Positions 3,671 through 29,248 of a stretch of 29,248 nt of DNA are shown in pieces. Position 1 is the first letter of the stretch; each line of letters begins with the position of its first letter. The position numbers and the translations under genes are program-made. Where the stretch lies: the IMG/VR virus record IMGVR_UViG_3300029319_000035, positions 1-29,248 of that record, one strand, 5' to 3'. The notes below the pieces were generated by a model. The model was not told the origin of the DNA. It saw nothing but the letters and a program-made list of their open reading frames with translations, and made no database searches. This stretch comes from a virus.

Positions 3671-3840
3671 GAGGAAAACCGATAAAACCTGGTAGACATA
3701 CTGGGAGCAAAGACAGTTGGCAGATTCAATATATGCCGAAGCAAGCTGTAAACCCGAGGCAAGAAGTTTCGGCTGAAAAAAAAGAAGCACTAAAGAGAAA
3801 GCGAAAGCTACAAAAGAAATCCAAAAGGAGGAACAGATGA
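3667..3840 (+). CDS. Small lysine/arginine-rich protein, 57 aa
   Basis: ATG 3667 overlaps the stop of the methyltransferase gene as ATGA and is preceded by GAGGTGG. The product is strongly basic: its last 20 residues are nearly all Lys and Arg (ALKRKRKLQKKSKRRNR). It has no recognisable domain; a nucleic-acid-binding or charge-neutralising role is plausible but unproven. It overlaps the next gene, an HTH protein, by four bases (ATGA at 3837), so the stretch 3086-4085 is translationally coupled throughout. Confidence 0.75.
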   Translation: MRGKPIKPGRHTGSKDSWQIQYMPKQAVNPRQEVSAEKKEALKRKRKLQKKSKRRNR

Positions 3841-4085
3841 CAGAACAAGAAAAAAACATATATGAAGCGTGGTTAAAAGACTTTGGTCGTTGTGTCGCAA
3901 TGCGTCGCAAGACCTTGGGATTAACTCAGAAGCAAGCTGCAGAGAGGGTAGGTATGCACAAGAAGTTCTATAGAGACATAGAGTATGGTTTGCGGCCTAT
4001 CACAACTCGGACGTTGTTTCAGCTGTGTATGCGTCTAGATTTAACGCTGCCGTATAGTGAGGCAATGATTTTCGTATGCGACTAG
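3837..4085 (+). CDS. XRE-family helix-turn-helix protein
   Basis: An 82-residue single-domain protein. Residues about 24-70 have the Cro/C1-type HTH pattern: RRKTLGLTQKQAAERVGM, then recognition-helix sequence HKKFYRDIEYGLRPITTRTL. AAGGAGG precedes ATG 3837 at good spacing. Proteins of this size are usually transcriptional repressors or activators in phages, and candidate targets are the operator-like repeats at 361-440 or 1257-1620. There is no partner domain. The C-terminal codons overlap the start of the membrane protein gene at 4076 by ten bases. Confidence 0.88.
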   Translation: MTEQEKNIYEAWLKDFGRCVAMRRKTLGLTQKQAAERVGMHKKFYRDIEYGLRPITTRTLFQLCMRLDLTLPYSEAMIFVCD

Positions 4086-5198: not shown

Positions 5199-7931
5199 TC
5201 AACCTTTATCAGTCTCATAATCGTAAAGATCTTCAGGTATCAGCCAAGTTGTGACCTTCTGATTACCATACCTGGTTTGCCCGATGGGTTTGACACCCAT
5301 AGCTGACAAAATCTCTCCGGCGCGTTTGGCAGCTTTCCGGTCCTGTTGCTTTGCAGGTATCTCGAGTACATCTTGTAGTATCTCTCTGATGTATACGTAC
5401 CGTGCTTTTTTGAGCTTTTTCTCGGTGACATCTCGAAGTCCTTTGAGATTTTTGAAGTTGTCCCATTTGATTTTACAATGTGAGCTGATGTATGGCAGCC
5501 AGGGATCTTGGGAAGCGAACTGTCTATTGAAGTCTTGCTGTCTTTGTTCGATATGTTTTGGAAACCAGTTTTGTCTATCAGGTCCTCTTTGAGCGTACTC
5601 ACCTTCTCCATAGATACAGTGCATAGCTCTAGCGTAAATGTATGGCAGATCTCTTCTGAGTTCATCTATTCTGATCATACCGCCTAGTCCGACACGGAAC
5701 GCCATAAATCGTCGAGAGCCTGTTGGATCTGACAGGAAGCCTAGCTGATCGATGTTTGAGTTACCGACCAGTACCCAAGAGGCGTCAATGGTGGAGACGT
5801 TTGCTTCGTACGGCTTACGGATTTTGAAACGTGGGTTTGAGATAAATCCTTTGATAACTTCGTATCCGTGTTCCAGCAGTGTATTACACTCGTCGAATTC
5901 ATAGAGTGCGCATCCAGCGAGGACGAGTTTGGCGTCTTTGCTCTTGAGGTCCAGATCTCCACGAGAGAAGTAGTCCTTTTCGATAGCGAGTAGTTCGGTA
6001 GAGATTGACTTCCCGCATCCTTGAGGTCCGATTTTAATTGGAAGGAGTTGCCATTCGCATCCAGGTTCAATCTGTCTCATACAAAAACCTTTACAGAACA
6101 TACGGCCGTATAGACTGATAAGTTCGTTGTGCTTGTCCTTGTTCGGTCCATCAGGTATCTCTGCTCTGTAATAGTATGTGTACAGGTTCTCAGGTCTTGC
6201 GTGGTCAGGTGCTTGAGACATATCCAAATTGAACCGCCATTCATTTAACTGATCTCGGACAGGATGATAAGAGTGTTTAGATGCAGCATAGTTGATACTC
6301 TTCCCGACAGTAGATAAGGGAAACTCGAGCTGTTCGTAGTTGCGTTGAATGAACAGCAGTGTTTCCATAGTCAGGTTGTCATTGATTGGTTGGCCATCAA
6401 CTTCAACAACTCCAGCAAACTCATTGTATTTGAACTTGCCCTGGAGACGCTTGTCATCCTGTAGAATGTTGTGCAGGTTGAGGATAACAGCTTTGATTTC
6501 GCCTTCTCCAATTTTGACGCCTTTCTCCATAATGGCTTTTCGGAACAGCTCAACATCGGGGTCTGCCCCTTCCATTTCAATCATTGGTTCAACGCCGACA
6601 GCCTGAAGTTCTGAGCCTCGTAATCTGATATCGATAGCTGCTCTAAGTTTCCGTGCGACCTTGGCACAACCGTGTAAAGCTTGAAGCCTGTAGAAGTACT
6701 TCTCTGCTTCCATTGGTACGTATTTAAAAGCGATAGCCAGGTCTTCAACGTAGTCAAACAGGTCAACGATTGTATTTATTCGATCAGCTCTCTTGGCATC
6801 CTCCAGTGCTTCAAAGGTATTCTTGAGTAGCTGCAAGGCTTTTTCCCCAACAATCTTTTCGTAGTTGGGGTAGTTGGTCACCTTCTCTTCGATGTGTGAT
6901 ACATCGTGTTCTTTGTCGAGGAAAAAGTCGTTGATGTCTCCTTCTCCGAGCATCAGTCTTTTTGGTACAAGAGGGTAGATAGCTTTGGCAATCTTCTCAG
7001 CGTACTCATCGCCCTTCTCATCGTTGTGGGTAGCAATGATTACTTCAGCAGCAGCGGGGAACTTGAACTGTCTGAATGCAGGTATAGAACCATTTTTGAT
7101 TCCCATCACGGGGTTGGTCACTCCTTTTGACTTGAGGCAGATGAAGTCCATCTCTCCTTCCACGATCCAGAAGCGATTGAATGACGATTCATTTCTGAGG
7201 AACTGTCTCATTTGTTCGCAAGCGAAGAACAGTCCAGACATAGAGTATCCGATTGGGCACATTGTCTTTGGTCGATCTTTCAGCTTCTCGACAGCTCGTC
7301 CCTGAAAACTTTTTAGGTTACCCAAACTGTCGACGAGTGGGACACACAGTGGGTATTCCTGTGCCCATTTCCAGGGCCAGAATGGCATACGTCGTCCAGA
7401 AGATGTCTCTACCTTCGTTAGAGTATTGTAGTGGAAACTGATTGGCATCACGTATGCTTCAGTGACATTATATGGGTTTATACCTCTTCTCTGTAGGAAT
7501 TTATCTATTTTGTCTGGAGTTCCATCTGCGGCAACAGGTTGTTTTCTTATTTGTTGCCATAGTGCTTTCAGGTCTTGAGAAGGCACTTCTTCCTTCTGGA
7601 AAGAAGGCACTTCGAAGCTAGTAAACTCTTTTGTTTTGAAGAAGTCTTTAATAGCGGAGTAGTCTTGGACATCTCTGCACTTCACGCCTTCCAGTGAATA
7701 TGCAACGAGGTCCATCATATCTCCCCCGGCTTGGCATCTAAAGCACGTCCAACCAGTCGAGTTTGTACCACGTACTATTCCTATTGGTGGGCGTTTATCC
7801 TTTGTGCCGACTTGTTCAGCACCGCAGGCAGGGCAGGGTGTCCATCTTTTACCTTTACAGGACATCCCAAGATTTCCAGCAACGCTCTCAAAACTAGAGT
7901 TTAACTTTGCTTTCCTAATCCAATCACTCAT
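5199..7931 (-). CDS. Primase-helicase (zinc finger, TOPRIM, VirE/SF3-like ATPase)
   Basis: A 910-residue replication protein expected to synthesise primers and unwind DNA at the phage fork. Domains in order: a CHC2-type zinc finger with C33, C36, C63 and C66 (CPAC and CFRC) followed by GGDMMDLV; a TOPRIM region with EGEMDF at 258-263, HNDEKGDEY near 302-310 and GDINDFF at 331-337; a helical linker; and a C-terminal helicase ATPase with Walker A GPQGCGKS (635-642), Walker B ALYEFDE (675-681), sensor VGNSN (722-726) and a likely arginine finger in GSRRF (738-742). The last domain resembles the VirE / phage D5-like family rather than DnaB. The start is ATG 7931 with AAGGAGG five bases upstream; the frame is open to 8003 but that part precedes the ribosome site. 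It is transcribed alone from the promoter at 7975-8003. Confidence 0.93.
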   Translation of the reverse strand: MSDWIRKAKLNSSFESVAGNLGMSCKGKRWTPCPACGAEQVGTKDKRPPIGIVRGTNSTGWTCFRCQAGGDMMDLVAYSLEGVKCRDVQDYSAIKDFFKTKEFTSFEVPSFQKEEVPSQDLKALWQQIRKQPVAADGTPDKIDKFLQRRGINPYNVTEAYVMPISFHYNTLTKVETSSGRRMPFWPWKWAQEYPLCVPLVDSLGNLKSFQGRAVEKLKDRPKTMCPIGYSMSGLFFACEQMRQFLRNESSFNRFWIVEGEMDFICLKSKGVTNPVMGIKNGSIPAFRQFKFPAAAEVIIATHNDEKGDEYAEKIAKAIYPLVPKRLMLGEGDINDFFLDKEHDVSHIEEKVTNYPNYEKIVGEKALQLLKNTFEALEDAKRADRINTIVDLFDYVEDLAIAFKYVPMEAEKYFYRLQALHGCAKVARKLRAAIDIRLRGSELQAVGVEPMIEMEGADPDVELFRKAIMEKGVKIGEGEIKAVILNLHNILQDDKRLQGKFKYNEFAGVVEVDGQPINDNLTMETLLFIQRNYEQLEFPLSTVGKSINYAASKHSYHPVRDQLNEWRFNLDMSQAPDHARPENLYTYYYRAEIPDGPNKDKHNELISLYGRMFCKGFCMRQIEPGCEWQLLPIKIGPQGCGKSISTELLAIEKDYFSRGDLDLKSKDAKLVLAGCALYEFDECNTLLEHGYEVIKGFISNPRFKIRKPYEANVSTIDASWVLVGNSNIDQLGFLSDPTGSRRFMAFRVGLGGMIRIDELRRDLPYIYARAMHCIYGEGEYAQRGPDRQNWFPKHIEQRQQDFNRQFASQDPWLPYISSHCKIKWDNFKNLKGLRDVTEKKLKKARYVYIREILQDVLEIPAKQQDRKAAKRAGEILSAMGVKPIGQTRYGNQKVTTWLIPEDLYDYETDKG

Positions 7932-7948
7932 TTTTTCCTCCTTGTTGT

Positions 7949-8003
7949 TTGCAAATGTAGTTGATTGTGTATACATTGTATGTACAAACCATTTGGTTTG
8001 CAA
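7949..8003. promoter_or_regulatory. Divergent face-to-face promoters with operator-like palindromes
   Basis: Leftward promoter: TTGCAA (8003-7998), 17-base spacer, TACAAT (7980-7975), driving the primase-helicase. Rightward promoter: TTGCAA (7949-7954), 17-base spacer, TACATT (7972-7977), driving the RHH gene at 8027. The two -10 elements overlap, so both cannot be used at once on one molecule. The palindrome TGTATACA (7968-7975) and an inverted repeat CAAACC/GGTTTG (7985-7990 and 7995-8000) lie within the block. Part of this sequence recurs in the promoter at 10192-10230. Confidence 0.7.
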
Positions 8004-8419: not shown

Positions 8420-8700
8420 GCAAGATACGGATTCATTCTGATTCTTTCGAAGAGTTATTACTGACTCTTCGGGAGATTAATGATGACGAGGACCTCTTCG
8501 TTGAGATAATCAACGAGGAGGGAGAAGTCCTTGTCTATGACAACGGTATGTTCGCGGTAGCTTCTGGCGCAGATCATTGTTGGTTCGAGGCTGATCAGCT
8601 GGTTGATCCTCAACGTGAGATGTTGGAAGCTACCTTGGTAGACCATTTATTGAGAATAGTAAACAATATAATCGCAGGAGCGTTAAACAATGTGGAATGA
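8416..8700 (+). CDS. Acidic hypothetical protein, 94 aa
   Basis: A strongly acidic protein (for example INDDEDLFVEIINEEGEVLV) with a beta-rich first half and a hydrophobic helical C terminus (ATLVDHLLRIVNNIIAGAL). I know no family for it. It is coupled to the RHH gene by an ATGA overlap at 8416 with CGGAG upstream, and overlaps the helicase gene by 11 bases. The acidic nature could suggest a DNA-mimic or partner-binding protein, but that is speculation; the context only says it is co-expressed with the helicase. Confidence 0.72.
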   Translation: MSKIRIHSDSFEELLLTLREINDDEDLFVEIINEEGEVLVYDNGMFAVASGADHCWFEADQLVDPQREMLEATLVDHLLRIVNNIIAGALNNVE

Positions 8701-10174
8701 TGCACCGTGGACACCACGCAGATGGCAGGAGGAAGCTTTACCTCTTGCCATTTCTTCTTTAAGACAAGGTAAACGCCCTATTATCTCAGCGATAATGGGT
8801 GCAGGGAAAAGTATACTATTGGCTGAATTAGTGTACGAGGCACTGAAGAAGCTACAACCTGGCTACAAAGTTGTAGTCATTGCGCCTCGTCAGTCTTTGA
8901 TTCGGCAGCTATACGGCACAATCTCTTTTCGTTGTGGAAAGGAGAATGTTGGTGTGTATTATGCTGATGAGAAGGACACGACAAAAAAAGTCGTGATTAC
9001 AACTTTTGTTTCTGCTCCGGCGATATCACGGCAAGTGAAGTGTGCTTTGCTTGTTGGAGATGAGGTACACGGAACAGAGGCTGAAAATTTTAAAAATTGT
9101 TATCAGTTTATTGATCCGGCTTGCGCGATTGGTTTTACAGCTACACCGTATCGCAGCAACGAGGTAGAGACACTATCACTGTGGGATGAAGTTATATATA
9201 GATACAGTGCCAAGGATGCTCTGTCAGATGGAGTTATCGTTCCTTGGAAGCTCGTACATTGGGATGGTACTGGTTCATCAGATACGGACGATGTTTGCCA
9301 CAGATTGATTGCCAGAATGGAGGGACCGGGAGTTGTGAGTGCTCTAAATATAGAGGATGCTATCAGCTACGCTGGATACCTGAATCGATATGGAATACGT
9401 TCTGCAGCTATTCATTCTAAGATGAAGCGAGCGGAAAGAGATCATATGCTGGAGATGCTGAAGAAGGGGTCTTTAAAATGCCTTGTACACGTCTCTCTGT
9501 TAGCTGAGGGGGTAGATATGCCCTGGTTGAAGTGGTTGTGCCTCAGAAGGCCTGTTGGGGCGCGAGTAAGGTTTGTACAGGAAGTGGGCAGGGTGTTGCG
9601 TGCTCATCCAGGAAAAGAGTTTGCTTATATAATAGATCCACACGATTTATTTGGAATGCACACATTATCCAATCCAGAACGTTTGGGAGAGGCGTTAACC
9701 AAGCAAGAGAAGGAATATGAAGATGAGCTTGTAATGTTAGTTCCGGAACAAGAAGAGCGAGAGATTATACGTAAGATGCCAGCAGCGAAAGCGTTCTCTG
9801 TAGTTGATTCTTATGTAACAAGTTTGCTCAGTGTGATGAGGGGTGCAGGTCTAGTTCCCCCTCCGAAAAAGTGGGTAGATGATCATTGGAGGGGTGGTGT
9901 CCCGACACGTAAGCAGCTTATGACTGTTGAGAAATGCAGATGGTCTTCGAGGTACTTACCAGAAAATGTCCGAGTACCATTTAAACTGATACTGGATAGG
10001 GCACATACTTACAACAAAGGAACGGTCACAGACCTATTGGAGATCCTGTTTGGACTTGCTAAATCTAGCAAGCAAGCTCGTGCAATGAAAAGGCACTACT
10101 ACCTCCCGAATATACGGTTTCCTAAGCCAGACTTCCCCATTCAACAAATGTTGTTTGTAATGGAAAAAAATTAA
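8690..10174 (+). CDS. SF2 DEAD/DEAH-type DNA helicase
   Basis: A 494-residue superfamily 2 helicase. Visible motifs: RRWQEEAL (10-17) in the Q-motif position, Walker A MGAGKS (36-41), motif Ia VVIAPRQSL (62-70), motif II DEVH (124-127), motif III FTATPYR (149-155), motif V AEGVDMP (272-278) and motif VI QEVGRVLRA (297-305). The last 170 residues form an unassigned, basic C-terminal domain. The layout resembles phage UvsW-like and RecQ/RadD-like helicases that act in recombination, repair or fork remodelling. ATG 8690 has AGGAG about nine bases upstream. This enzyme, the primase-helicase and the RecU-like nuclease could together handle replication and recombination intermediates. No nuclease domain is fused. 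Confidence 0.93.
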   Translation: MWNDAPWTPRRWQEEALPLAISSLRQGKRPIISAIMGAGKSILLAELVYEALKKLQPGYKVVVIAPRQSLIRQLYGTISFRCGKENVGVYYADEKDTTKKVVITTFVSAPAISRQVKCALLVGDEVHGTEAENFKNCYQFIDPACAIGFTATPYRSNEVETLSLWDEVIYRYSAKDALSDGVIVPWKLVHWDGTGSSDTDDVCHRLIARMEGPGVVSALNIEDAISYAGYLNRYGIRSAAIHSKMKRAERDHMLEMLKKGSLKCLVHVSLLAEGVDMPWLKWLCLRRPVGARVRFVQEVGRVLRAHPGKEFAYIIDPHDLFGMHTLSNPERLGEALTKQEKEYEDELVMLVPEQEEREIIRKMPAAKAFSVVDSYVTSLLSVMRGAGLVPPPKKWVDDHWRGGVPTRKQLMTVEKCRWSSRYLPENVRVPFKLILDRAHTYNKGTVTDLLEILFGLAKSSKQARAMKRHYYLPNIRFPKPDFPIQQMLFVMEKN

Positions 10175-13418: not shown

Positions 13419-13450
13419 CCCTCACCTTTCCCCAAGGTGGGGGTTTTTTT
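13419..13450 (+). terminator. Strong rho-independent terminator of the rightward operon
   Basis: A 10-base stem, CCCTCACCTT (13419-13428) with AAGGTGGGGG (13434-13443), contains one G-T pair and a 5-base loop, and is followed by seven T residues (13444-13450). It ends the 10251-13393 operon and separates it from the converging late genes, whose last stop is at 13449. Confidence 0.93.
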
Positions 13451-14024
13451 AATCTTCTAACAATGTATAGCTGAAGCTGTTCCCATAAAGGTCAGCACTT
13501 ATCCTACACAGCTCCATAAACACTCTGTAATCATTTGGATCAGCAAACACTTGGCATCCTGCGCTCCACTTATCTACCTGAGTACTGGTCCGAACGGAAG
13601 AGGCACGATGAATGTTTATACCAAAATAACCCTGCTCGATGTCTTCAGGGTTGTGTTCCAAGATCTCGTCCTTGTCAGCATCGCGATACACCTTGACTTG
13701 TCCTCCTGTTTGCACAAGAGCCTCGTATTGGCCTTTGTGTTTCCCAAGTTGCCAAGTCCCTCTATACTGACCTGGGCACAAGATAGCAGTACCAGAAACA
13801 CGACTTGGATTTACTAGCCAGTACTTACCAGGGTCTGTAGTGACCGGAAAGGACAGTTCTACCCATTTGCCAGCACTGTCCTTGTACACACAGTGCAAAG
13901 TATCATCAAAGGCATTTGCAGTTGATTCTGGGCTTCTTACACCTATTAGGTTTAGATTGTAAGAACCTGTTTTAAAAACAACGTATCCTTCTCTTTCAGC
14001 TCGTTGTAGTATATCTGGTATCAT
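13449..14024 (-). CDS. L,D-transpeptidase-like protein, possible endolysin
   Basis: A 191-residue protein related to a family common in marine and other tailed phages. The C-terminal part has the signature of the YkuD catalytic fold: H139 in INIHRASS and C157 in DKWSAGCQVF, with S154 before it, close to the HXnSxGC pattern of L,D-transpeptidases and carboxypeptidases. A substrate in the peptidoglycan stem peptide is therefore likely, and a lysis function follows by inference from the late position near a holin-like gene. The first residues (GYVVFKTGSYNLNLIGVRS) match the usual beginning of the family. ATG 14024 is preceded by AAAGAGG; ATG 14060, overlapping the upstream stop as ATGA, and ATG 14096 are longer alternatives. 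There is no signal peptide. Confidence 0.8.
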   Translation of the reverse strand: MIPDILQRAEREGYVVFKTGSYNLNLIGVRSPESTANAFDDTLHCVYKDSAGKWVELSFPVTTDPGKYWLVNPSRVSGTAILCPGQYRGTWQLGKHKGQYEALVQTGGQVKVYRDADKDEILEHNPEDIEQGYFGINIHRASSVRTSTQVDKWSAGCQVFADPNDYRVFMELCRISADLYGNSFSYTLLED

Positions 14025-14056
14025 TTCGACCTCTTTCCTAAGAACCGCGCCGAGCA

Positions 14057-14353
14057 TCATTTTCTTCTCGCTGACTTTGCGCCCTTGCATTTCCATTTTT
14101 TTCGGGACAGATTGTTTGGTGAATTAGGGTCACGGGCCTTCTTGGCCGACTTGCCACCCTTCTTAATCATTTCCTTTTTTATACCTAGCGACCGAGCACA
14201 ATACGAGTCACCCTTAGATGTCCCTGGACGTATTCGATCACCGCCGCCTTTGGCTTTACCTGCTTGACCGTAGCTGACCTTTCTCTTTCGGCCAGTTTTC
14301 TTGTTCTTTACGACCTTAACAAATCGTTTTCCTTTCGATGGTTTCGCAGCCAT
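14057..14353 (-). CDS. Basic phage-conserved protein (DUF6321-like), 98 aa
   Basis: A Lys/Arg/Gly-rich 98-residue protein. The segments RKVSYGQAGKAKGGGDRIRP, TSKGDSYCARS and DPNSPNNLSRKKWKC are typical of a widespread phage family that I associate with DUF6321, whose function is unknown. Only two cysteines remain (C52 in SYCARS and C88 in KWKCKG), whereas relatives I recall have more, so a zinc site is doubtful. AGAGG precedes ATG 14353, two bases after the stop of the previous gene. It belongs to the block of basic proteins 14057-15063; binding or packaging of DNA in the capsid would fit the charge but is not shown. Confidence 0.8.
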   Translation of the reverse strand: MAAKPSKGKRFVKVVKNKKTGRKRKVSYGQAGKAKGGGDRIRPGTSKGDSYCARSLGIKKEMIKKGGKSAKKARDPNSPNNLSRKKWKCKGAKSARRK

Positions 14354-17026: not shown

Positions 17027-18844
17027 TTATGCGATATAAACAGCGTGCAAAATGTCGTTGGCATCCGGGTTAGCCCCGAAGGTGATACGACCAACACCAC
17101 CACTACCACCAGTAGCAGATACAGCGTAAGAATCGTTATCACTGTCGCCATCTTTTTCCATTAACAAACCGTTTTTGTACACAAGAACTTCGACGTGTCC
17201 AGCATCTAGAGCTACTGACAAATCGAATGTTGCTGTACTACCATTGGCAGTAAAGACATCACGACGAATACGAGCAGCCATTTTAGCAGGAGTAACAGCA
17301 TCATCAGCAAGCTGAGATGTGCCAACACCAGCAGCTTTGATACTGATTGTTCGAGCAGCAGAACCGTTGAATGTTGTTCCGGAGTTCAAGGCTATAGTGC
17401 TGTCGTCTACAGTCAAAGCATCCAAGTTTGCACCAAGAGCTTTTCCAGAGATCGTGCTGTTTGCAAGCTTTGCATTTGCAATGCTTCCGGCCAACATATC
17501 GTTGGTAATTCCAGAAGCTTGTACAAAAAGACCATCAGCATCAGCAGTTAGACCCCCAGAACCCTTCAGCTTGACCTCTAATTTATCAACACCGTCAACG
17601 TCGATAGATTGTAAACCAATATCAAGCAAAAGTTTGCTTGCTTGAATAGACCCGGCGAGCATTGCATCGGTAATCCCAGACGCCTTAACACGTAGAGCAT
17701 CAGAAGAAACTTCAATTGAGCTGTCATCCACCGCAACATCGAGAGTGTTGCCACTCTTGGTCATAGCTGCCCCAGCAGTAATTTGGCCAGCTCCAGAGAA
17801 TTGGGTAAATACCAAACTGTGAGTACCTACTGTATCAGAAGCATCGTCAGTTGTACAAACGAAACCATTGTCAGCATTTACAGTACCCTCTTCAACGAAG
17901 AAGAATGCACCAGAAGCGTGTTCGCCAGCTGACAGGTCAGCAGCACGTGCCCAAGAGCCTGCTTTACAGAGATAAATACCATTTTCAGAAGCAGTACTTT
18001 GATTTTTTACCAAAACACGCTCATCAGCACTAACCGCCACACCATCGATAGTTTGTGTACCACTCAAGGTAATGTTAGCAGTAGTAGCAACACGAACAGC
18101 ATCCTTGACATCCAATCCTTGTTGCACAGAATCAACATATGCTTTTGTAGCAGCGTCTTGTGCTTGTGTTGGATCAGCCAATCCAGTAATCTTTTGGCTA
18201 TTCATCGCAAAAGCACCATCTGGGTTTGCTAGATCGTTCGGCTTTAATTGGCCAGCCAGAGTGCTAGCAGCCAATGATCCACCCAAGGAAATAGATTGTC
18301 CAGCAACGGTCACAGCACTATTAGCAAGCTTTCCGTTGGCAATTGACCCAGCGAGCATAGCGTTGGTAACCCCAGAGGCTTTAATGCTGATTGTGCGTCC
18401 AGCAGAACCATTGAATGTTGTTCCAGAATCTAGTTGAATAGAAGAGTCGTCTACAGTAAGATTTCCTAAATTCTCCCCAAGAGCAACACCAGAGATTGTG
18501 CTGTTTGCGAGTTTTCCGTTGGCGATTGACCCAGCAAGCATAGCGTTGGTGATTCCAGAAGCTTTAACACGGATAGCGTCTGAGTTTACTTCGATCGATG
18601 AGTCGTCTACTTGGACACTGAGAACCTGACTCGAAAGAGCAAGAGCAGCACCAGCGATAGCAGACTTTATACGTAGTCCTGTAGAATTTTCAAGAGCAGA
18701 TGTTCCAGCGAGCTGTACAGCCGAGCCACTGACTTTGTTGGAGGTTGAGATTGTGGCGAGTTTAGAATCTGAAATACTACCTGCGAGTTTTGAATCGTCG
18801 ATAGCAAGATTTTTTATCTGCGCCCCACTAATTTGTATAGCCAT
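17027..18844 (-). CDS. Repeat-rich tail-fibre protein, 605 aa
   Basis: The protein contains repeated units with the signatures AMLAGSIANGKLANS (four variants, near residues 99, 160, 385 and 440), LTVDDSS and GTTFNGSAGRTISIKA; the longest unit occurs twice, almost intact. Between them is a domain starting DPTQAQDAATKAYVDSVQQG and continuing with ERVLVKNQSTASENGIYLC and GAFFFVEEGT, a common module of phage tail fibres. The C terminus (FTANGSTATFDLSVALDAGH and VLVYKNGLLM) forms a beta module also seen in 18852-19202. AGGAAATT precedes ATG 18844. Function: a trimeric appendage used for host recognition (inference). The repeats are also visible at DNA level. Confidence 0.85.
   Translation of the reverse strand: MAIQISGAQIKNLAIDDSKLAGSISDSKLATISTSNKVSGSAVQLAGTSALENSTGLRIKSAIAGAALALSSQVLSVQVDDSSIEVNSDAIRVKASGITNAMLAGSIANGKLANSTISGVALGENLGNLTVDDSSIQLDSGTTFNGSAGRTISIKASGVTNAMLAGSIANGKLANSAVTVAGQSISLGGSLAASTLAGQLKPNDLANPDGAFAMNSQKITGLADPTQAQDAATKAYVDSVQQGLDVKDAVRVATTANITLSGTQTIDGVAVSADERVLVKNQSTASENGIYLCKAGSWARAADLSAGEHASGAFFFVEEGTVNADNGFVCTTDDASDTVGTHSLVFTQFSGAGQITAGAAMTKSGNTLDVAVDDSSIEVSSDALRVKASGITDAMLAGSIQASKLLLDIGLQSIDVDGVDKLEVKLKGSGGLTADADGLFVQASGITNDMLAGSIANAKLANSTISGKALGANLDALTVDDSTIALNSGTTFNGSAARTISIKAAGVGTSQLADDAVTPAKMAARIRRDVFTANGSTATFDLSVALDAGHVEVLVYKNGLLMEKDGDSDNDSYAVSATGGSGGVGRITFGANPDANDILHAVYIA
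17336..18560 (-). repeat. Duplicated coding repeat within the fibre gene
   Basis: A segment of roughly 180 bases occurs at about 17336-17525 and again at about 18384-18560, with the same order of sub-motifs (GTTTAA-type variations are silent or conservative). Shorter copies of GCNAGCATNGCGTTGGT-like sequence lie near 18351 and 17657. The repeats stay in frame and are likely to allow length changes of the fibre by recombination. Confidence 0.65.
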
Positions 18845-19784: not shown

Positions 19785-21959
19785 TTAGTGGAGAGCGGTC
19801 CAGCTACTGCCGTTATACACCATCAACTTGTTTGTGGTTGTATTGTACAAGATAAGTCCTGCAGCCGGACTTGAAATAGCGTTTTGCTGAGTTGTTGTCA
19901 TTTTTGGTGGCAGCAATCCTTTTGTTGTGGATACAATCTGTAGTATAGCACTCGCCTCATTTGGATTAGTACCAATACCAACGGCATTATCACCACCATT
20001 AGTCCGTATCAGATTGGGGAAACTATTTCCGTTGACGCGAAAATCAATGTCGACCCGACCTGTATTTGCCTCGATACAAAATGCTTGCGTTGCCCCTGCT
20101 GTGTCCTCCTTACCAATTCGAAGACACTCTACCTCGGCATTATTTACGAGCGCATTGAAAAGTATCTCTCCACTCTGCGCATTGCCAGAGGATGTTACAT
20201 CTGATGCCCGAGCAACGATTGACGCGTATTCCTTTGGATTAGGCGTTCCAGCATCATCTTCACCAAAGAAAGACAATTTACCTATTTCCATGTCATCAGA
20301 GGCGTGCCCCAGTTTGTTAAAACGAAGCATTGGCGGTTTGTCAGCTGAATCGTGTGAGTTAATCAGCTCAACCATCGGGTTTGTTTCCGCTGCTGTACTT
20401 TCAATGATTACAGATCCGTTGGAAGCTATGGCGTCATTTTTCATTTGCAGCAGGGTTGTACCAGTCGCTCCTGTATTGTCATTGGTAATGTCGATCAGTG
20501 AGCGCACACTGTTAGAAGATGAATCGGATTCAATTTTAAATACACTACCATCAGTCAAGGCATCTGCGGTTACAGTCATTACAGCACCTGTGGTCAATGC
20601 GTCCGCTGTAATGTCTATGACATTGGCTGTAGTCTGAGAGGCGTTGATATCAAGGCAAATTTTGTCGACATCTAACGCGTTGAGTTGTAGTAGTGGTACA
20701 CCAGTATCTGCATCTCCAGTGACCTCCAGAAGGGCCGCAGGACTATCTGTGCTCACACCAATAGATACTCTGTCAGTACTGGCCTCAGCAAAGATAAGAT
20801 TGGCATCATTGTTACCCTCGACACGAAAATCAACATCACCAGACAGGTCATTGATTACAAACTCATCTTGTGTACCCTCAGAGCATCTAGCTATCTCTAC
20901 ACCGCCAGCCTCAAACGCAATGATGTCTCCAGCGTTGAAAAAAACAATCCTGGTATCTGTGTCTCCATTGTGAGTGAGGTGTTTGTCAATCAATACATCA
21001 TTGGTTGACATTGTAATTGTTTTGTCATCAGATATGGTCAAGGCTGTAGCAAAACTATTAAGGGAGCTTCCGCCTGCACCTTCATTGGCCACCTGAAAGA
21101 TGATGTCTCCCCCAGCTCCAGAACCTTTACCTTGTCCACCCTGAATAGTCAGAGAGCCACCAGCAATGTTATTGGTTGTTCCGGCTGTGGTATTACCACC
21201 CCGAATGACAACGCTTGTACCAGCAACATTGTGAGCAGTATCAGAGGTGGTAAACAGGTCCATAGATGTAACGACCAGGTCTCCACTACCAAAAGCGACA
21301 TCAGATAAATCATCCAGCGCAGAAGCCCCGCCACCACCTGCTAATCCTGTACCAGAGGTAATCTGGATATCGTCACCTGCATCGGTTGTAAAATACAACT
21401 CATTAGGAGTCGCTGTCTTGACCCACAGCTGACCATACGCAGCAACGTCAGCATCGGCATTGGCTTTTTCTTTCAGAGACACAGAAGAATTAAATGTAGC
21501 TGACCCCGCCTCTGACATATCCAGTTTCAACGCTGTTACGCCACTACCACCATCATTACCAGAAAAAATCAGGTCCTTGTCTTGAGTTTCAATGTGTAGT
21601 GTTATGTCACCACTACTGTTCTCAAAATAGGCTCGAAGTGTCCCGCCTGTCAGGAACTTCCAAGTATTTCCGGCGGCATCCAAGTGGACATCATCTGCAG
21701 CATCCAGAATGAGGTCGCCACTTTGCCCGGTTGCGATGGTTGTGTGAGAATCGTTTGCCACTGTAAACGTAGCAAAGCTGTCTGAATCGTAGCTCAATTT
21801 GAGCTGCGTAGAGGTAGCCATTACCTCCAATTCAGAGTCAGGGTCAGCCACCCCTATACCAACTCGGTTTGAAGAATCTACATAGATTAAACCAGCATCA
21901 CCAACATCAACGGTAAGATCTGGAAAATCTGATACTAAATTTCCCTGGTTAATGCCCAT
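19785..21959 (-). CDS. Large beta-rich fibre-like virion protein, 724 aa
   Basis: A long Asp/Ser/Thr/Ala-rich protein with many short repeated strand-turn elements (VGIGVADPDSELEV, DLILDAADDVHLDA, ANVIDITADAL twice, RVSIGVSTDSP), typical of beta-helical or triple-stranded shafts. The C terminus (GLLPPKMTTTQQNAIS then GLILYNTTTNKLMVYNGSSW) is a familiar ending of phage fibre and bacterial adhesin-like proteins; the intramolecular chaperone that sometimes follows such a region is absent. AAGGGAT precedes ATG 21959. A role as a fibre or tail appendage is likely; a receptor is unknown. Confidence 0.82.
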   Translation of the reverse strand: MGINQGNLVSDFPDLTVDVGDAGLIYVDSSNRVGIGVADPDSELEVMATSTQLKLSYDSDSFATFTVANDSHTTIATGQSGDLILDAADDVHLDAAGNTWKFLTGGTLRAYFENSSGDITLHIETQDKDLIFSGNDGGSGVTALKLDMSEAGSATFNSSVSLKEKANADADVAAYGQLWVKTATPNELYFTTDAGDDIQITSGTGLAGGGGASALDDLSDVAFGSGDLVVTSMDLFTTSDTAHNVAGTSVVIRGGNTTAGTTNNIAGGSLTIQGGQGKGSGAGGDIIFQVANEGAGGSSLNSFATALTISDDKTITMSTNDVLIDKHLTHNGDTDTRIVFFNAGDIIAFEAGGVEIARCSEGTQDEFVINDLSGDVDFRVEGNNDANLIFAEASTDRVSIGVSTDSPAALLEVTGDADTGVPLLQLNALDVDKICLDINASQTTANVIDITADALTTGAVMTVTADALTDGSVFKIESDSSSNSVRSLIDITNDNTGATGTTLLQMKNDAIASNGSVIIESTAAETNPMVELINSHDSADKPPMLRFNKLGHASDDMEIGKLSFFGEDDAGTPNPKEYASIVARASDVTSSGNAQSGEILFNALVNNAEVECLRIGKEDTAGATQAFCIEANTGRVDIDFRVNGNSFPNLIRTNGGDNAVGIGTNPNEASAILQIVSTTKGLLPPKMTTTQQNAISSPAAGLILYNTTTNKLMVYNGSSWTALH

Positions 21960-21962
21960 TTT

Positions 21963-22427
21963 TTATCCCTTTGATAACTCATACCAAAACAGTCGTGCTC
22001 TGTGTAAAATTGGATTACTGAGATTGAAATTACGAGTAGTAACCCAGCAATGTATGGTATTTGCTGAACCATCTGAAGGTAGGCTCGGGACCATATCCAT
22101 ATCAATGGCAGCCATATAATAGTCCGTCGTAGTGGTACGTCGAGCAACCATTCTTATAGCCGCACTTGGACCTGCACATATATCATTGCCATCAGAATCC
22201 CAAGTGAAGAAAACTTTGCATTCTCGGTCTGTCTGATTGGCTGTATCGTCTTCAATAATAATTTCCAGATGACTCCAGCGCACTCCTCCAGTTGGTAAAC
22301 CAATTGCAGAGGTTGCCGTGGTGTCAGCATTGAGAGTTACCTTGACGAAGGTGTTACCGAACGTGGTAACACCCCCAGCCGAAGTTAGCGTTACGTTTTC
22401 GCTGTTTTGTAAAAATCCACTAGCCAT
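21963..22427 (-). CDS. Virion protein of unknown detail, 154 aa
   Basis: The protein is beta-rich with an acidic central loop (IIIEDDTANQTDRECKVFFT) and an aromatic C terminus (RLFWYELSKG). It has AGGAGG before ATG 22427 at ideal spacing and lies three bases before the large fibre gene, so they are probably in one mRNA. No family is recognised. Location and composition suggest a small structural or fibre-connector component. Confidence 0.68.
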   Translation of the reverse strand: MASGFLQNSENVTLTSAGGVTTFGNTFVKVTLNADTTATSAIGLPTGGVRWSHLEIIIEDDTANQTDRECKVFFTWDSDGNDICAGPSAAIRMVARRTTTTDYYMAAIDMDMVPSLPSDGSANTIHCWVTTRNFNLSNPILHRARLFWYELSKG

Positions 22428-22454: not shown

Positions 22455-23192
22455 TTAGCTACGTTCCCAAAGGACTGAAATATAGTCAATGTCGACTTGT
22501 GGTACAGTTGTACCGCTCGATTTTTGAATTTCAACTATTGGCTGTAAATAATCCGCTGCTGCCATTTGACTAACATCAAAAGTAGTAGATTTCAGTTGTC
22601 TTACTCCATCAATAAAAAATTTAACATCTGATAAATCACTCATATCAATTTTAAATTTGTAGTAAGTTCCACTAACCCAGTCTGATGTTGTATCTTGATC
22701 AGATGTGTCAGTAACACCATCATCAGTATCAATAAGGATATTGTTGTTAGCTCCTGTCCATTTGAATAAACAATGATCAGCAATGTCACCAACAGTATCG
22801 TTTCTGGCAGAAGCCAACCCAATAATTAATGTTTCAGCAGCATTTGGTGAAGCAGTTGTAATTGCAACTCTTGCTTCAAAAATTGGTTTTTTCGTAGGAG
22901 ATATGCAACAGTCATCACCAAGATAAACAGCACATCTTTCGGCTTCTGAAGTTGAAGCTAATTTCATTCTATAAACACCATCTGCAAGAGGTTGGTGCGC
23001 TAGAGTTGGTGTGCCTGATGATGAATCGTCATGTTGTACAAATCCTGAGCCAGATGCAGGTAAAGCTCCACCACCGATAAAGTCAGAAAAAATTTGAACG
23101 TGGTCACCAACACTTCGTGTGTACCATCCCTTTTCACTAACAGCGTCGTGCTGAAGTCGGTTGCCATTCATTAATTGTGGAATCTGTGACAT
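22455..23192 (-). CDS. Lectin-like (concanavalin A fold) virion protein, 245 aa
   Basis: The strand pattern and sequence (YRMKLASTSEAERCAVYLGD, IFEARVAITTAS, LIIGLASARND, YYKFKIDMSDLSDVKFFIDG) resemble concanavalin A-like jelly-roll domains found in phage proteins that bind glycans or decorate capsids and tails. The C terminus ends in VDIDYISVLWERS, the usual final strand. ATAGGAG precedes ATG 23192. A carbohydrate-binding, adsorption-related role is likely but inferred. It is immediately upstream of the fibre genes and downstream of the polyprotein. Confidence 0.75.
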   Translation of the reverse strand: MSQIPQLMNGNRLQHDAVSEKGWYTRSVGDHVQIFSDFIGGGALPASGSGFVQHDDSSSGTPTLAHQPLADGVYRMKLASTSEAERCAVYLGDDCCISPTKKPIFEARVAITTASPNAAETLIIGLASARNDTVGDIADHCLFKWTGANNNILIDTDDGVTDTSDQDTTSDWVSGTYYKFKIDMSDLSDVKFFIDGVRQLKSTTFDVSQMAAADYLQPIVEIQKSSGTTVPQVDIDYISVLWERS

Positions 23193-23234: not shown

Positions 23235-26200
23235 TTACTGTAGGTCACCAGATTTTTCTTCTGCTTCCCTTAGTTCTTGGCGAACCCCTCTAATTACTCT
23301 CAACTGCTCTACCAGCTCAGTTCGCAACGCTTTCGGCGGAACGGACATAACTTCCAAGAAAGATTCAAAATCAGTGTAACCAAGACGGGTTTCAGAAGGC
23401 TCACCCAAAACTTTACTTTTGAAAGTGCTTGTTAAAAACCTAGTTTGTTTCTGTGGTCTACCAAATACTAGATTCGTTCCTGGAAACGAAGTAAGCGTTT
23501 CCAAAGAAAGGTAGTATAGAAATACATCTATAGTTTCTTCGGGAACATAAAAGATATCATCACCACGAACAGAATCTTCATACTCATACTTTCTTCTTTT
23601 CATATTGATAAATCCTTTCGTGTTCGTTGGATTTTCACTTGAAAAATTAAACAATGGATACAGCTTGTTCATAGCTTCCATCTGTCTCTGCGAAACTCTA
23701 ATTTGGCTAAGATCCATATTGTTAAACAGTTGCTTGGACATAGCCAATTCAAACACCATCTTGATAAGTGGTGTACTCTGATTTACAGCATATGCTGCAG
23801 TACCACCTAACAAATTCTTTAATACGTCTTCATAGAAGAACTCTTTTGCTGTTCCACCTTGGAGGGCTTTTTGTAGTCCACCGCGCATCATTTCTACAAA
23901 TGGAGCAACCATCATTGCGGAATCAGCAACACCAACCATAGGCCAAATATGAACCTTTTGACCGTATACGTCTTCATAATACCAAACGTCGTGAGGCTCT
24001 TGAAAATCAAAAACACCGCCCTTAGACATTATTCTTGGTCTAAGATAATCAGGTAGCATTCTATACTCGTATCCTCTTTCGTCTTGAGATGTAGCTTCCC
24101 TTTGCGAGTTCCGGATAAAACGGAGAACACCCATAACCCTTGCAGGATTGTTCATTAAGGCCCTGGTAACTTGAATTTGGTTTTTTCTCATATACGCGTA
24201 GAATAAAAAGACTTGTCGTAAATATGTCTTCTCAAAATCAGTTAAAGCAGCGTAATCATAGTATGTATCACGTACGACCTTTGCGGCTTCTGCTCCTGAT
24301 TTCCCCTTGTTTATCTCATCCATAAACAATGCAAATCTGAATATATTGTCTGTAGCTGCAGCCAATTCTGACCAAAAGTCTACATATGCTTCACCAAGGG
24401 CGTAGAGCTTATACAATCCTTTTGGATTCTTTTGTCTCAAATCGTCGATAACACTTTGTCCCAGCTCCGTAGTAATGAAAGAGCCTCCAATACCGTGCTT
24501 CTGAGCTTCGTTGGCTAAACTTTCAGCTGTCCATATTCGGCCATCATCTGTAACCATAACTCGACCTTTATGGTGACCGCGCTTTCCATATTCAAAAACA
24601 CTTATCTCTTTTGGGTGTAAGAACGAAAGACCTTGCAAGTAAATGTCAACATTCAACACAGCCGTTGCAAAGTTAGAACTTATTCCTTTTATTCCTCCAT
24701 CTAAGAAGCCTTGAAACAAAGCCCCAAACATATTGTTTACGTAGTAAGCAGCAGTTCCCACAAGGAATCCAGTAGTAACCAATCGCTTCTTCATTCTGTG
24801 GTAGGCTTCAAAAACATTAAGAATGTTATTAAATGGATTACCTGAAAACCGTTGGGCTGGGTTTACTAGTCTTGAAATCGTATACGCACACACTGTAAGA
24901 GCGTCATTTACAAATTCTCTAATTGGTTTGGCTGGCTCAAGTTTTTCAGTGAGTCGTTCAGAAGCGGTTTGTGTCCTCATCTCCTTCTTTAATTCTTTAA
25001 AATACTCTCGTATTGTAAAATAGCCTTTTTCAGCTTTCGCTTGATCAATACGAGTTTTCAAGTACTGTGATGACAATTCAGCCTCAGCTAGTTGTTCTTT
25101 TGCATTTAAAGCAAAATCAAGGTCTTCATATATCGTGGTGTTAGGATCGCCACTTTTTTCAACAAGTTTGCTTTTAATGTTGTCCATTAGTCGTTGTGTG
25201 TTCGGAAACCTTGCTTCTAGTGACTCACCTAAAATCTCTTTGAGGTATTTTTGAGTTTCAAGTGCAAACTGAGTATCAATGTCTTCAACCAGTTCAGTGT
25301 TTTTAGACTCAATGTCAAATTCCTTTATCGACCTTCTAAGAGCAGGGTAGTCTGGATTTTGCTCTATAATATATTGAGTTACAAGGTGATGTAAATCTTT
25401 TGCATCAAGTTGAGGATACATCTTTAAAATTTCCTCAACCATTCTTTCCTTAATGATTTCCGACCTGGCTAAATTTTGTTGTTGCCTTTTTGTGTTGCTT
25501 TTTCTTTCAGCAAGCTCTTTTGGAGTAATTCTGGTTTTGTCTTTTGCAACTCCCAATGGCGAAACTTGCTCAGTTAGATTCAACATAATGTCATCTAGTC
25601 CAGTTGGAACAATATATTCAATCCCATCAGGGGAGGTATAACGTTGCATCTTTTTTCCTGAACTAGGTTCAATACCATATGTAGATATAATTTCACCGGC
25701 CACCTGTGTAGCCGCTATATCTAACTCTAAGAGTTCAGCATTTTCTCTTTGAGGCGGCACTAGAAATTTTCTATCTGCTGACAACAAACGAGAGTTTGGT
25801 GTGAGATTTATCCATTTATTAATTATTTGTTCTACCTTATCAATAAAGATGCTCTCTTCTACTAAAGGCTCAAAACCAATTTCTATAAGTTTCTCACGAG
25901 CCGCTTTTTGTAAATCACCATAAACGTGGATTTCAGCGATTTTACGTGAAGCCTCAGCTAGTTTTTCCTCAGCCATCAAACGAACAATCATTTCTGACAT
26001 CACCATCCCCAAATCAATTTTTGGAGTTTGAGAAAGTTTTACATCTCCACTGTCTATGCCCATTCCAATCAATGTTCTTCTGAAATAGGTTTCATCCATT
26101 GGAGCTTTGGTGGTTATTTCATTGGCGTATTTTACAATCTCTTCTGGTGTAAGCTTATCAAGATCTTTCTTAATTTTTAACGTTTTCTTCAGGTCTTCTG

Positions 26201-29200
26201 CAGCGTTAATGTTGGCACTGGATTCATTCTTAAAAGACTCCTTGAATCCAAACTGTCTATATATATTTACCAAGTCCTGAGGTGTCCATTCTTGTCCATT
26301 TATAGGCTCTTCCACAGAGTATTTAGTGGGGTTCTGCATTCTTTTTAAATCCAAGTCGCCAGGAGCAATCTTACCTTGGAAGAACAAAGTGTACGCAGTA
26401 TACAAGTCCTGAGAGCTTAATTCACCTGACGACAGTTCTTGCTTACCAACAGCAGCCTTGTAAACAATTTCCCCTCTTCTTTTAACTTGAAAGTCTTTTC
26501 TTTCTAGAGCTGTCAAAAGTATTGATATGTTTGCTGTGACTTGCTTCTTCTGGTCAGGAGACAAACTCATATTTGAGTTGTATGTCCCCAAAAACACTCC
26601 CAACTCTTCTGACGCCACTTCCTCGGCCAAGGTCAAATCAAAACCTATAATACTTTTGACTTCGTTAAAAAATCCATTTGCCCAAGTATCAATGCTTAGA
26701 ACATCTCGAGTTGAAGCTATTCTTCTGTAAATAGAAACTATTTTGTCTTGGGCTTCTTCTATCGCTGTTATTTCCTTTTTAGTCAACTCTAAAGTCTCAT
26801 TTTCGTCTCTGTCGAGAAGGTATTCTTTCAGAACCTGAAACTCCTTTGGAGCAGACTCTCCAGCAACATCAATAGCATCCATCATCGTTCGAAGCTTTAA
26901 AAGAGCATCTTTGTCTTCTAAAGCAAGCTCAAAATTCTTATCCATCATTCCTGATTTGATACCTTTAATTCTGTTTACAATGTTACGTAGCTGAGGAACT
27001 TTAACAGGATCAACAGGTGGATTGAACATCCTTTGTAGGTTTCGCCCTATCTGTACCATTGGCACACCAATCTTTCGAAGATTCTTACGCTTGGATTCTG
27101 TTAGGTTAGAACCAAAAATAGAATCAGCATAACCAATAGCCTGCTCAGAGTTTTGTTTGTCAATTAAGTTCAACACAGTTTCAATGTCTTGTGGAAGTTT
27201 TCTTAACCCTGCCTGTAGCTCGATTAAAACCTCTACAATTCTAGGATCTAGTTTCTGTTCAGTAGCAATCGCCTCTAAGCTTTTACCAGGTAAACTTGCA
27301 ACAATAGATGGGTTGTAGTTTTCAACAACTATATCAGCAACCGTGCGTATATTTTGAACTGTTGACCTTGCAATACGCCCACCAATTGCGTCAGGAATCA
27401 ATCTTGCAAGCCCATCGACGACGTTGTACAACGCACTTGTCGAAGTGCGTTCAAGAGCATTGCTTCGCTTTGCCGATATGGGAGCAGCATTATCAATTAT
27501 CGCTGGTCTTATGATATCTCCGATATCAGTCAAATATATCTTTACCCTGCCATCTCCACGTTTAGTGTCTTTAACACGACGAACAAAGCCAGCATCTAAC
27601 AATTGACGACCGGGAAGAGAGTGTGTTTTGTCAATGAAGTCGTCTAAACGAGCCTTCACTTCTGGGCCAAAAGTTACAAATGGCTGATTGAGTTTTTCTT
27701 GTTGCTCTCTGGTCATATCGAAAATGTTTTCTACATTGTCATACTTTGCTTCAGTTCCAAACTTCTCGGCTACTTGATCCATTGTTTGACCAAAGATTTT
27801 TTCCATCTTAATTCTTGCTCTGGCAGAGTACTCCTCTCGATCTTCAGCCCTTACAATTGTTCTTTGGGTTAAAGCGTGGTAATCAAAGCGTGTGTTTGCT
27901 TGTATGTGTCTGTAGTCAGCATAAGCCTCTATTCTTGCATAGAAGTCAAGTTTATCAATGGGCTTACCCTCTTTTACAAGTTGCAAAAAGGCAATGTCTA
28001 TTTCTTCGCCTGTTACTTCTTCTGGCCTGATATCATTAACATCTCTGTTCTCCCTTTGAGCAATGTTCTCTTTTGCTCTTTGGCGAGAAGGTCTTAGCTT
28101 TTCTGGATAGTTTATAGAAGGATACAAACTAGGCCGTAAGTCATTTAACAGCTCATCACGACTGGTTTTGTAGACCCTCTGACTAACTTTTGACAACGCC
28201 CTCTTGGTTTTGTTTTTCTCTTCTGCTTGTAAGATACCAAGTTCTTGAAACACCTCAACGGTTTCTAGATACGCGTTTCGAAAGTTTACAGGACTCTCTG
28301 CTGTTGATTTTAAAAGACCCTCTATTGCATCTGAATTGATAACTCCCTCTAGTTTCTGTCTTTGCTCTGCAATGCGATCCTCATTTAAAGATCGAGTGGC
28401 CGTTTCAGCTTGTCGAGTAATTTGTTTTGTTGGGTTAATTTTCAAAAGCTTTTTAAGGCCCTCTGGCATATTGCTTTTAGCACCTCGAGCAATCCTGGAA
28501 TTTAAGGCTAGGTTTAATGCAGTCTTGAAAGATTCAGTAAATCGTCTTATGCCTTCTTGTAAAACAGGATCGCCCGAGTTTTTTTCTGACATCTGAGTGT
28601 ATTCCCAAGCATCAGCAAATTCCTCTTCCCCTTTCCTAGTCATTCTGCGTTGTCCATTTTGAACAACGTGATCGAAGTATTTGGCTATTTGGTTGTATGT
28701 ATCAGGGTCTAAGAGGCTTCTTACAAGGTGACCGTGCTCGTGGAAAAAGGTTGTGATATCATAGTCTTTACCAAGTTGAATTCTAACTATGTCACCAGTG
28801 TTTACAAATGTCCCAAGTACTGTGTCTTCTTCCTTCTTGGTAAGGCGATTTTTCATTAAGAATTTGTTTTGTTCTGCTTCTGTCATCACTCCAGTGTATC
28901 GACTTACATCTATATCGTAGTCAACTGGCAGTATTGGTTCACCTGATATAAACTCTTGCTTGTTCAAAACTTCAGTTAAAAAGTTTGTGGCTCTGTCGTC
29001 AGGTATTTGTTGTAGAACTGATTTCAAAACTTGTAGCTGGTGTTCGTTCAATGGCTTTGGATTTAGCTCAAAAGCGGCTCTAAATTGCGTCAATGCTTTT
29101 TGCAGCCCCTGAGGTACAGTCATCAACCGTAAAAGGAAATTAAAGACTTCACTGCCCATTCGTGTATCGATTTCTTGAAACCCTGCATACATAGCATTCT

Positions 29201-29248
29201 GAGCTTTTTCTTGGCCTATGTATTTTTTCATTGTAGACCAAACCATCT
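23235..29248 (-). CDS. Giant virion polyprotein with HEXXH metallopeptidase-like site (partial at 5' end)
   Basis: A continuous frame of at least 2003 residues that reaches the window edge; ATG 29246 may be internal. Near the visible N terminus, residues 169-173 are HEHGH (in TTFFHEHGHLVRSL), with EEEFADAWEY about 34 residues later supplying a possible third zinc ligand: a gluzincin-like metallopeptidase site. The middle (300-1450) is charged and helical with long coiled-coil-prone stretches. A hydrophobic segment near 1490-1510 (GFLVGTAAYYVNNMFGALFQ) is followed, at about 1615-1700, by DNIFRFALFMDEINKGKSGA and DYAALTDFEKTYLRQV, which resemble the LPD38-type module of phage large polyvalent proteins. 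Such proteins are packaged and injected. Function is inferred; the protease could act on the polyprotein, the cell wall or a host protein. Confidence 0.8.
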   Translation of the reverse strand, partial: MVWSTMKKYIGQEKAQNAMYAGFQEIDTRMGSEVFNFLLRLMTVPQGLQKALTQFRAAFELNPKPLNEHQLQVLKSVLQQIPDDRATNFLTEVLNKQEFISGEPILPVDYDIDVSRYTGVMTEAEQNKFLMKNRLTKKEEDTVLGTFVNTGDIVRIQLGKDYDITTFFHEHGHLVRSLLDPDTYNQIAKYFDHVVQNGQRRMTRKGEEEFADAWEYTQMSEKNSGDPVLQEGIRRFTESFKTALNLALNSRIARGAKSNMPEGLKKLLKINPTKQITRQAETATRSLNEDRIAEQRQKLEGVINSDAIEGLLKSTAESPVNFRNAYLETVEVFQELGILQAEEKNKTKRALSKVSQRVYKTSRDELLNDLRPSLYPSINYPEKLRPSRQRAKENIAQRENRDVNDIRPEEVTGEEIDIAFLQLVKEGKPIDKLDFYARIEAYADYRHIQANTRFDYHALTQRTIVRAEDREEYSARARIKMEKIFGQTMDQVAEKFGTEAKYDNVENIFDMTREQQEKLNQPFVTFGPEVKARLDDFIDKTHSLPGRQLLDAGFVRRVKDTKRGDGRVKIYLTDIGDIIRPAIIDNAAPISAKRSNALERTSTSALYNVVDGLARLIPDAIGGRIARSTVQNIRTVADIVVENYNPSIVASLPGKSLEAIATEQKLDPRIVEVLIELQAGLRKLPQDIETVLNLIDKQNSEQAIGYADSIFGSNLTESKRKNLRKIGVPMVQIGRNLQRMFNPPVDPVKVPQLRNIVNRIKGIKSGMMDKNFELALEDKDALLKLRTMMDAIDVAGESAPKEFQVLKEYLLDRDENETLELTKKEITAIEEAQDKIVSIYRRIASTRDVLSIDTWANGFFNEVKSIIGFDLTLAEEVASEELGVFLGTYNSNMSLSPDQKKQVTANISILLTALERKDFQVKRRGEIVYKAAVGKQELSSGELSSQDLYTAYTLFFQGKIAPGDLDLKRMQNPTKYSVEEPINGQEWTPQDLVNIYRQFGFKESFKNESSANINAAEDLKKTLKIKKDLDKLTPEEIVKYANEITTKAPMDETYFRRTLIGMGIDSGDVKLSQTPKIDLGMVMSEMIVRLMAEEKLAEASRKIAEIHVYGDLQKAAREKLIEIGFEPLVEESIFIDKVEQIINKWINLTPNSRLLSADRKFLVPPQRENAELLELDIAATQVAGEIISTYGIEPSSGKKMQRYTSPDGIEYIVPTGLDDIMLNLTEQVSPLGVAKDKTRITPKELAERKSNTKRQQQNLARSEIIKERMVEEILKMYPQLDAKDLHHLVTQYIIEQNPDYPALRRSIKEFDIESKNTELVEDIDTQFALETQKYLKEILGESLEARFPNTQRLMDNIKSKLVEKSGDPNTTIYEDLDFALNAKEQLAEAELSSQYLKTRIDQAKAEKGYFTIREYFKELKKEMRTQTASERLTEKLEPAKPIREFVNDALTVCAYTISRLVNPAQRFSGNPFNNILNVFEAYHRMKKRLVTTGFLVGTAAYYVNNMFGALFQGFLDGGIKGISSNFATAVLNVDIYLQGLSFLHPKEISVFEYGKRGHHKGRVMVTDDGRIWTAESLANEAQKHGIGGSFITTELGQSVIDDLRQKNPKGLYKLYALGEAYVDFWSELAAATDNIFRFALFMDEINKGKSGAEAAKVVRDTYYDYAALTDFEKTYLRQVFLFYAYMRKNQIQVTRALMNNPARVMGVLRFIRNSQREATSQDERGYEYRMLPDYLRPRIMSKGGVFDFQEPHDVWYYEDVYGQKVHIWPMVGVADSAMMVAPFVEMMRGGLQKALQGGTAKEFFYEDVLKNLLGGTAAYAVNQSTPLIKMVFELAMSKQLFNNMDLSQIRVSQRQMEAMNKLYPLFNFSSENPTNTKGFINMKRRKYEYEDSVRGDDIFYVPEETIDVFLYYLSLETLTSFPGTNLVFGRPQKQTRFLTSTFKSKVLGEPSETRLGYTDFESFLEVMSVPPKALRTELVEQLRVIRGVRQELREAEEKSGDLQ

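Follow-up and report, generated by a model that had tools for sequence, protein, structure and literature searches.

A probable ejected giant protein with a predicted zincin-like metallopeptidase domain in an uncultured phage

Organization and extent of the giant gene

The window analyzed in this study is a stretch of DNA of 29,248 nt, corresponding to positions 1 to 29,248 of the IMG/VR virus record IMGVR_UViG_3300029319_000035 (62,669 bases in total; 62.7 kb). An open frame of 2,003 codons was found on the minus strand (23235–29246), and the window ends where a scaffold gap of ten Ns starts inside this gene (29249). In the parent record, which supplied the sequence upstream of 29248 that an earlier reading made from the letters of the window (hereafter, the sequence-only reading) had proposed to obtain, the frame runs on through the ten Ns to 5,251 codons (record 23235–38990). 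Because scaffold Ns are no proof of a frame, relatives were needed. In the closest relative (record G001, locus L092), a single unbroken ORF of 5,092 aa aligned colinearly with the window protein before and after the gap. At the gap position itself, '..AIMHQ' is followed immediately by 'WIWAKM..' in the relative, with zero extra residues, and the corresponding sequence here is '..AIIHQ', the Ns, and 'MVWSTM..'. Since the frame continues in the parent record and the relative is continuous at the gap, we put the actual length of the protein at about 5,247 aa and take the ATG at the edge of the window for an internal codon. The frame of more than 2000 residues described in the sequence-only reading thus exists, but it is not the whole protein: the window holds the C-terminal 2,003 residues (23235–29248, minus strand; numbering below refers to this part) of an ORF of approximately 5,250 aa.

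Upstream, the strand of the giant gene carried terminase, portal-like, scaffold-like, head, and tail genes, followed by genes for 424-, 665-, and 144-aa proteins and then by the giant gene itself. The next gene downstream encoded a 245-aa protein (22455–23192, minus strand); this gene and that at 21963–22427 precede tail-fibre-like genes (19785–21959 and 17027–18844). The gene order in the closest relative was 709 – 141 – 5,092 – 191 aa. In Bordetella phage BPP-1, the order is bbp12 (internal virion protein), bbp11 (transglycosylase), bbp10, and tail fibre, and in T7 the genes of gp14, gp15, and gp16 stand before the tail fibre gene. By analogy, the giant gene occupies the slot of the third, largest ejection protein in T7- and BPP-1-like phages. 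Like polyvalent and ejection proteins of phages, the giant is a large protein encoded among virion genes.

Other genes of the window were as follows. The 605-aa tail-fibre-like protein (17027–18844, minus strand) contained repeated 'VDDSSIEV' and 'MLAGSIANGKLANS' units. A 215-aa protein encoded downstream of the late operon (13449–14096, minus strand) matched phrog_3000 and the endolysin-like phrog_33083, and is a candidate lysis enzyme. Genes for DNA methyltransferase, primase-helicase, and helicase were located at 1840–3093 (plus strand), 5199–8003 (minus strand), and 8690–10174 (plus strand). No T7-like RNA polymerase was found in the parent record.

Relatives of the giant protein

Homologues were reached via the large terminase, which gave 54 IMG/VR loci, and a scan with the conserved C-terminal module described below gave 80 more loci. 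A homologue of the window part was encoded in 20 of the 34 records from the terminase search. Direct searches with the window protein gave no match in deposited phages and IMG/VR, and a pattern search of 84,980 bacterial and archaeal genomes, within its sensitivity, gave no relatives. For the ~3,200 residues upstream of the window part, matches were essentially limited to the closest relative, and head and cargo were not distinguishable within them. The N-terminal 3,244 aa had no relative in a PDB sequence search. The giant gave nothing significant against Pfam and one weak match against PHROG. One of its N-terminal stretches may resemble a common polyvalent-protein segment, a resemblance on which no conclusion rests.

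Predicted zincin-like metallopeptidase domain

The core of a zincin-like metallopeptidase domain was assigned to residues ~130–250 (28497–28859, minus strand), based on its conservation in all relatives, the homology of the corresponding domain of a relative (L099) to Bbp10 of BPP-1, and the order of structural elements predicted by AlphaFold. In the giants of the relatives, this region always occupies the same position N-terminal to the conserved C-terminal module. The HExxH motif, HEHGH, is located at residues 169–173 (28728–28742, minus strand), and alignment and co-conservation predict Glu208 (28623–28625, minus strand), within GEEEFADAW (206–214), as the third zinc ligand. The pairing of HEHGH with a downstream acidic EEEFADAWEY, as described in the sequence-only reading, was therefore borne out, the acidic stretch supplying a plausible third ligand.

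Shuffled family proteins yielded HE..H in ~2% (<3,000 aa) to 6% (>3,000 aa) of cases; because the motif was this rare in shuffled proteins and was conserved in relatives, its occurrence in the family is not attributable to chance. Among 43 distinct sequences, the Glu of GxE[QE]FA corresponding to E208 was present in all 13 with HExxH and in 5 of the 30 without it (Fisher 2e-7, with kinship ignored). On a tree of the C-terminal module, in which the trait was not included, the HExxH state changed at least eight times and the Glu never changed in the opposite way; the sign test for this co-change gave 0.06, limited by the number of pairs. The residues G, H, E, H, E, A, and R were invariant in the 13 HExxH sequences, which were 17–26% identical to the window protein, and members lacking the motif contained the same domain (hhalign probability 100).

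The window domain was linked by HMM to that of L099, which in turn matched Bbp10 with an E-value of 5e-8 over ~200 residues, HExxH and Glu lying within the match. The score of this match was 46.6 bits, compared with 26.6 bits for the best of 200 shuffles, and the L099 domain also matched a Caulobacter phage protein (E 1e-9). The family profile matched Bbp10 itself with an E-value of 6e-4 in a four-protein set, so that the link between the window protein and Bbp10 is transitive via L099. Residues 700–1000 of Bbp10 served as a seed for the CLCA_X zincin family (PMC3650047), and the domain type found most often in phage polyvalent proteins is the HExxH one (PMC5512222). A profile match of this HExxH family to a second HExxH family vanished when members lacking the motif were used, and was therefore down-weighted as motif-driven.

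Two AlphaFold models (mean pLDDT 61 and 71) gave strands, the HEHGH helix, a hairpin, and then the E208 helix, with pLDDT of ~85–95 over the best part; E208 fell in predicted helix 101–117 of the second model. This order is compatible with the three-stranded sheet and two helices of zincins. Foldseek against PDB returned no metallopeptidase match for either model, and a PDB sequence search with the domain found no relative. The structure prediction suggested in the sequence-only reading thus recovered a zincin-like order of elements and no PDB match. Because Foldseek matched no solved structure, we base zincin membership on sequence and regard the fold as compatible. The conserved HExxH, the co-lost Glu, and the homology of a relative to Bbp10, itself a seed of CLCA-like zincins, sustain the metallopeptidase reading, and the domain in the window copy is likely to be an active zinc peptidase.

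Connecting region and C-terminal module

The zincin-like domain is followed by a connecting region of ~1,230 residues (24804–28496, minus strand; 779–1,272 residues in relatives), for which no known family was matched, and by a conserved C-terminal module at residues 1482–1739 (24030–24803, minus strand) with invariant D, R, G, DY, F, P, and R. A PDB sequence search with this module found no relative; WD40 matches in the PDB sequence search were rejected as repeat artefacts. The hydrophobic patch placed near residue 1500 by the sequence-only reading was located within the module (residues 1493–1511; 24714–24770, minus strand), but it was only modest, with a Kyte-Doolittle value of ~1.06–1.07 over 19 residues. 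The same reading had also described an LPD38-like region, an impression for which the likeness is that both are regions of large phage proteins. Pfam LPD38 (PF18857) was matched in none of 21 records and none of 21 aligned family members at E ≤ 5, in a search run without a positive control, and this assignment was dropped.

The C-terminal module also terminates 735–1,100-aa proteins of phages from other samples (L152–L193) and the 1,783-aa ORF of Cellulosimicrobium phage DS1 (L194:6593–11944). The phrog_19395 label "tail fiber; host specificity" on short proteins with this module looks like a mislabel. In several of L105–L111, the module contained an insert rich in glycine, with weak matches to Pfam Gly-zipper and DUF6861, as in membrane-inserting proteins.

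Payload slot in relatives

In short members of the family (2,249–2,624 aa), a conserved head runs directly into the zincin. In all 11 long relatives with an alignable head, ~720–3,065 aa were inserted exactly between the head and the zincin, the head ending at 820–1,070 and the zincin beginning at 1,699–3,977. The pair L099 and L137 shared 49–66% identity in regions flanking a non-matching stretch (319 vs. 368 aa) directly before the zincin. The slot contained ART-PolyVal in L099, a GNAT acetyltransferase in L094, and additional HExxH domains in others. Two or more effector domains per chain (ART, GNAT, and HExxH types) were thus seen in relatives, whereas the zincin was the only one in the window protein. 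The suggestion that new effector domains may be present is plausible, given the ART and GNAT domains in the slot of relatives and the ~3,200 residues outside the window to which no family was assigned. A PDB sequence search with the cargo-free chassis of relatives found no relative.

HExxH domains in the cargo of relatives matched the solved ejection proteins 9sfn (E 2e-21) and 8vb2, and residues 2222–2320 of N4 vRNAP. This second HExxH type is referred to as A5. A further cargo HExxH type showed a weak match to WLM metalloproteases. These two cargo types were found in L101, L103, L104, L115, L138, L145, and L094.

At least one HExxH domain was present in 13 of 14 proteins longer than 3,000 aa and in 4 of 21 shorter ones (raw counts); four short cargo-free members retained HExxH. 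In the sister pair L108/L175, the cargo-bearing member kept the site and the cargo-free one had lost it. Under phylogenetic pairing, three of four independent pairs agreed, which is not significant, and the association between cargo and HExxH is therefore regarded as suggestive.

Proposed function and alternative explanations

The giant is likely to be packaged in the virion and ejected into the host, and the uncultured phage encoding it is probably short-tailed. That proteins of this size in phage late operons are usually packaged and sent into the host had been stated in the sequence-only reading; the gene order and the domains that relatives have in common with solved ejection proteins point the same way, and presence in the virion is inferred from them. 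As the best explanation of the whole, with a probability of roughly 0.6, we propose that the window protein is the C-terminal portion of an uncultured phage's third and largest ejection protein, a giant polyvalent protein of ~5,250 aa. This protein would consist of a conserved C-terminal body of ~2,000 aa (zincin, long linker, and C-terminal module) and ~3,200 aa ahead of it. It would be made late and packed inside the head, and would pass out through the tail behind two smaller proteins encoded upstream (424 and 665 aa), which would leave along with it. The C-terminal body may serve packaging or ejection, and the zincin (H169, E170, H173, and E208) may cut the chain near its own N-terminal side, so that the N-terminal payload would be free in the new host.

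For this last step, self-processing rather than cleavage of host proteins by the zincin is given about even odds; on the former, the giant may reasonably be called a polyprotein in the sense of a cleaved chain. Self-processing by HExxH domains of ejected phage giants has been proposed earlier (PMC5512222). The main caution comes by analogy from N4 gp50, the vRNAP: its HExxH domain lies at the corresponding point of the chain, yet it is packaged unprocessed (PMC5512222).

Alternatively, the zincin could itself be an effector that cuts host proteins after ejection, for example defence factors or proteins of transcription, its own chain staying intact. Zincins serve as effectors in other conflict systems, and both the unprocessed packaging of N4 vRNAP and the intact site in the four short cargo-free relatives agree with such a role. 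Because the slot adjoins the zincin directly upstream and the presence of HExxH tracks protein length, however, self-processing fits better, and the effector role is considered rather unlikely. A mainly structural zincin in the ejection body, with catalysis that is dispensable and decaying in the family, would account for the 30 of 43 relatives that lost HExxH yet kept the domain and for the repeated changes of state; it is nevertheless an unlikely explanation, since retention of all four site residues in the window protein and 12 others at low identity disfavours neutral decay.

Weak PHROG tape-measure matches in three relatives would suit a tape-measure protein or another structural component of the tail that is not ejected. 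This is very improbable given the podovirus gene order with internal virion proteins, and variable enzymatic inserts would be unexpected in a length ruler. Hardly any probability is assigned to an N4-type virion RNA polymerase, in which a polymerase payload would lie in front of the HExxH domain. The layout does resemble that of N4 gp50 (NTD, RNAP, HExxH-containing C1 at 2124–2375, and helical C2; PMC12633501), but the record matched neither phrog_2206 (the vRNAP family) nor Pfam RNA_pol (PF00940), the positive control being detected, and an N4-type polymerase in the giant was rejected on this basis. Further, neither the N-terminal 3,244 aa nor the cargo-free chassis of relatives matched a polymerase or N4 chain in PDB.

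Returning to the ejected giant with a self-processing zincin, we tentatively suggest that the family might form a modular delivery chassis: a conserved head followed by a slot open to payloads, then a zincin, which would free the payload, and finally a conserved C-terminal ejection body, with the zinc ligands kept or lost as a set. Under this possible arrangement, ART, acetyltransferase, peptidases, and other domains of up to 3,065 aa would be swapped at the same junction, with the N4 RNA polymerase as a parallel case. If so, the ~3,200 upstream residues of the window protein would rank with the largest payload regions of the kind seen here. Such a defined junction would lead directly to novel domains that act on the host in uncultured phages, and might offer a natural means of bringing large proteins into bacteria.

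As to the reason why a zinc-protease domain is so frequent in ejected phage giants, there has so far been a prediction, self-processing, but no clear test of it. This family gives natural experiments, as near relatives differ in the presence of payload and of zinc ligands (L108 vs. L175) or in the segments that occupy one position (L099 vs. L137).

Comparison with known systems

The kind of protein described here is already known; as far as our searches show, what is new is its size, its clade (recovered here almost only from metagenomes), and a payload junction next to the zincin. As in the T7 ejection trio gp14/gp15/gp16 (reviewed in PMC8954989), consecutive late genes of rising size lie ahead of the tail-fibre genes. 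The giant differs from that trio in having no sequence match to it, in that no transglycosylase was found in it, and in being approximately four times as large as gp16.

N4 gp50 of Schitoviridae is an ejected giant, with an N-terminal part, a payload, HExxH, and a large helical C-terminal region in this order (PMC12633501). In contrast, the present giant has no RNA polymerase match, its chassis has no detectable homology to that of gp50, and the HExxH domain of gp50 matches the other HExxH type, A5, found in the cargo of some relatives.

Bbp10 of BPP-1 and gp039 of Caulobacter phages Jess A and RapA are CLCA_X zincins (PMC3650047) and phage polyvalent proteins (PMC5512222). They are shorter (2,040–2,052 aa vs. 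~5,250 aa), the C-terminal module has no significant match in them, and the similarity detected between them and the window protein was confined to the zincin. Their domain with HExxH and Glu is homologous to that of the window protein through the relative L099, and their gene also follows two smaller internal or lytic proteins and precedes a tail gene. Moreover, an ART segment upstream of the zincin is common to Jess A gp039 and L099.
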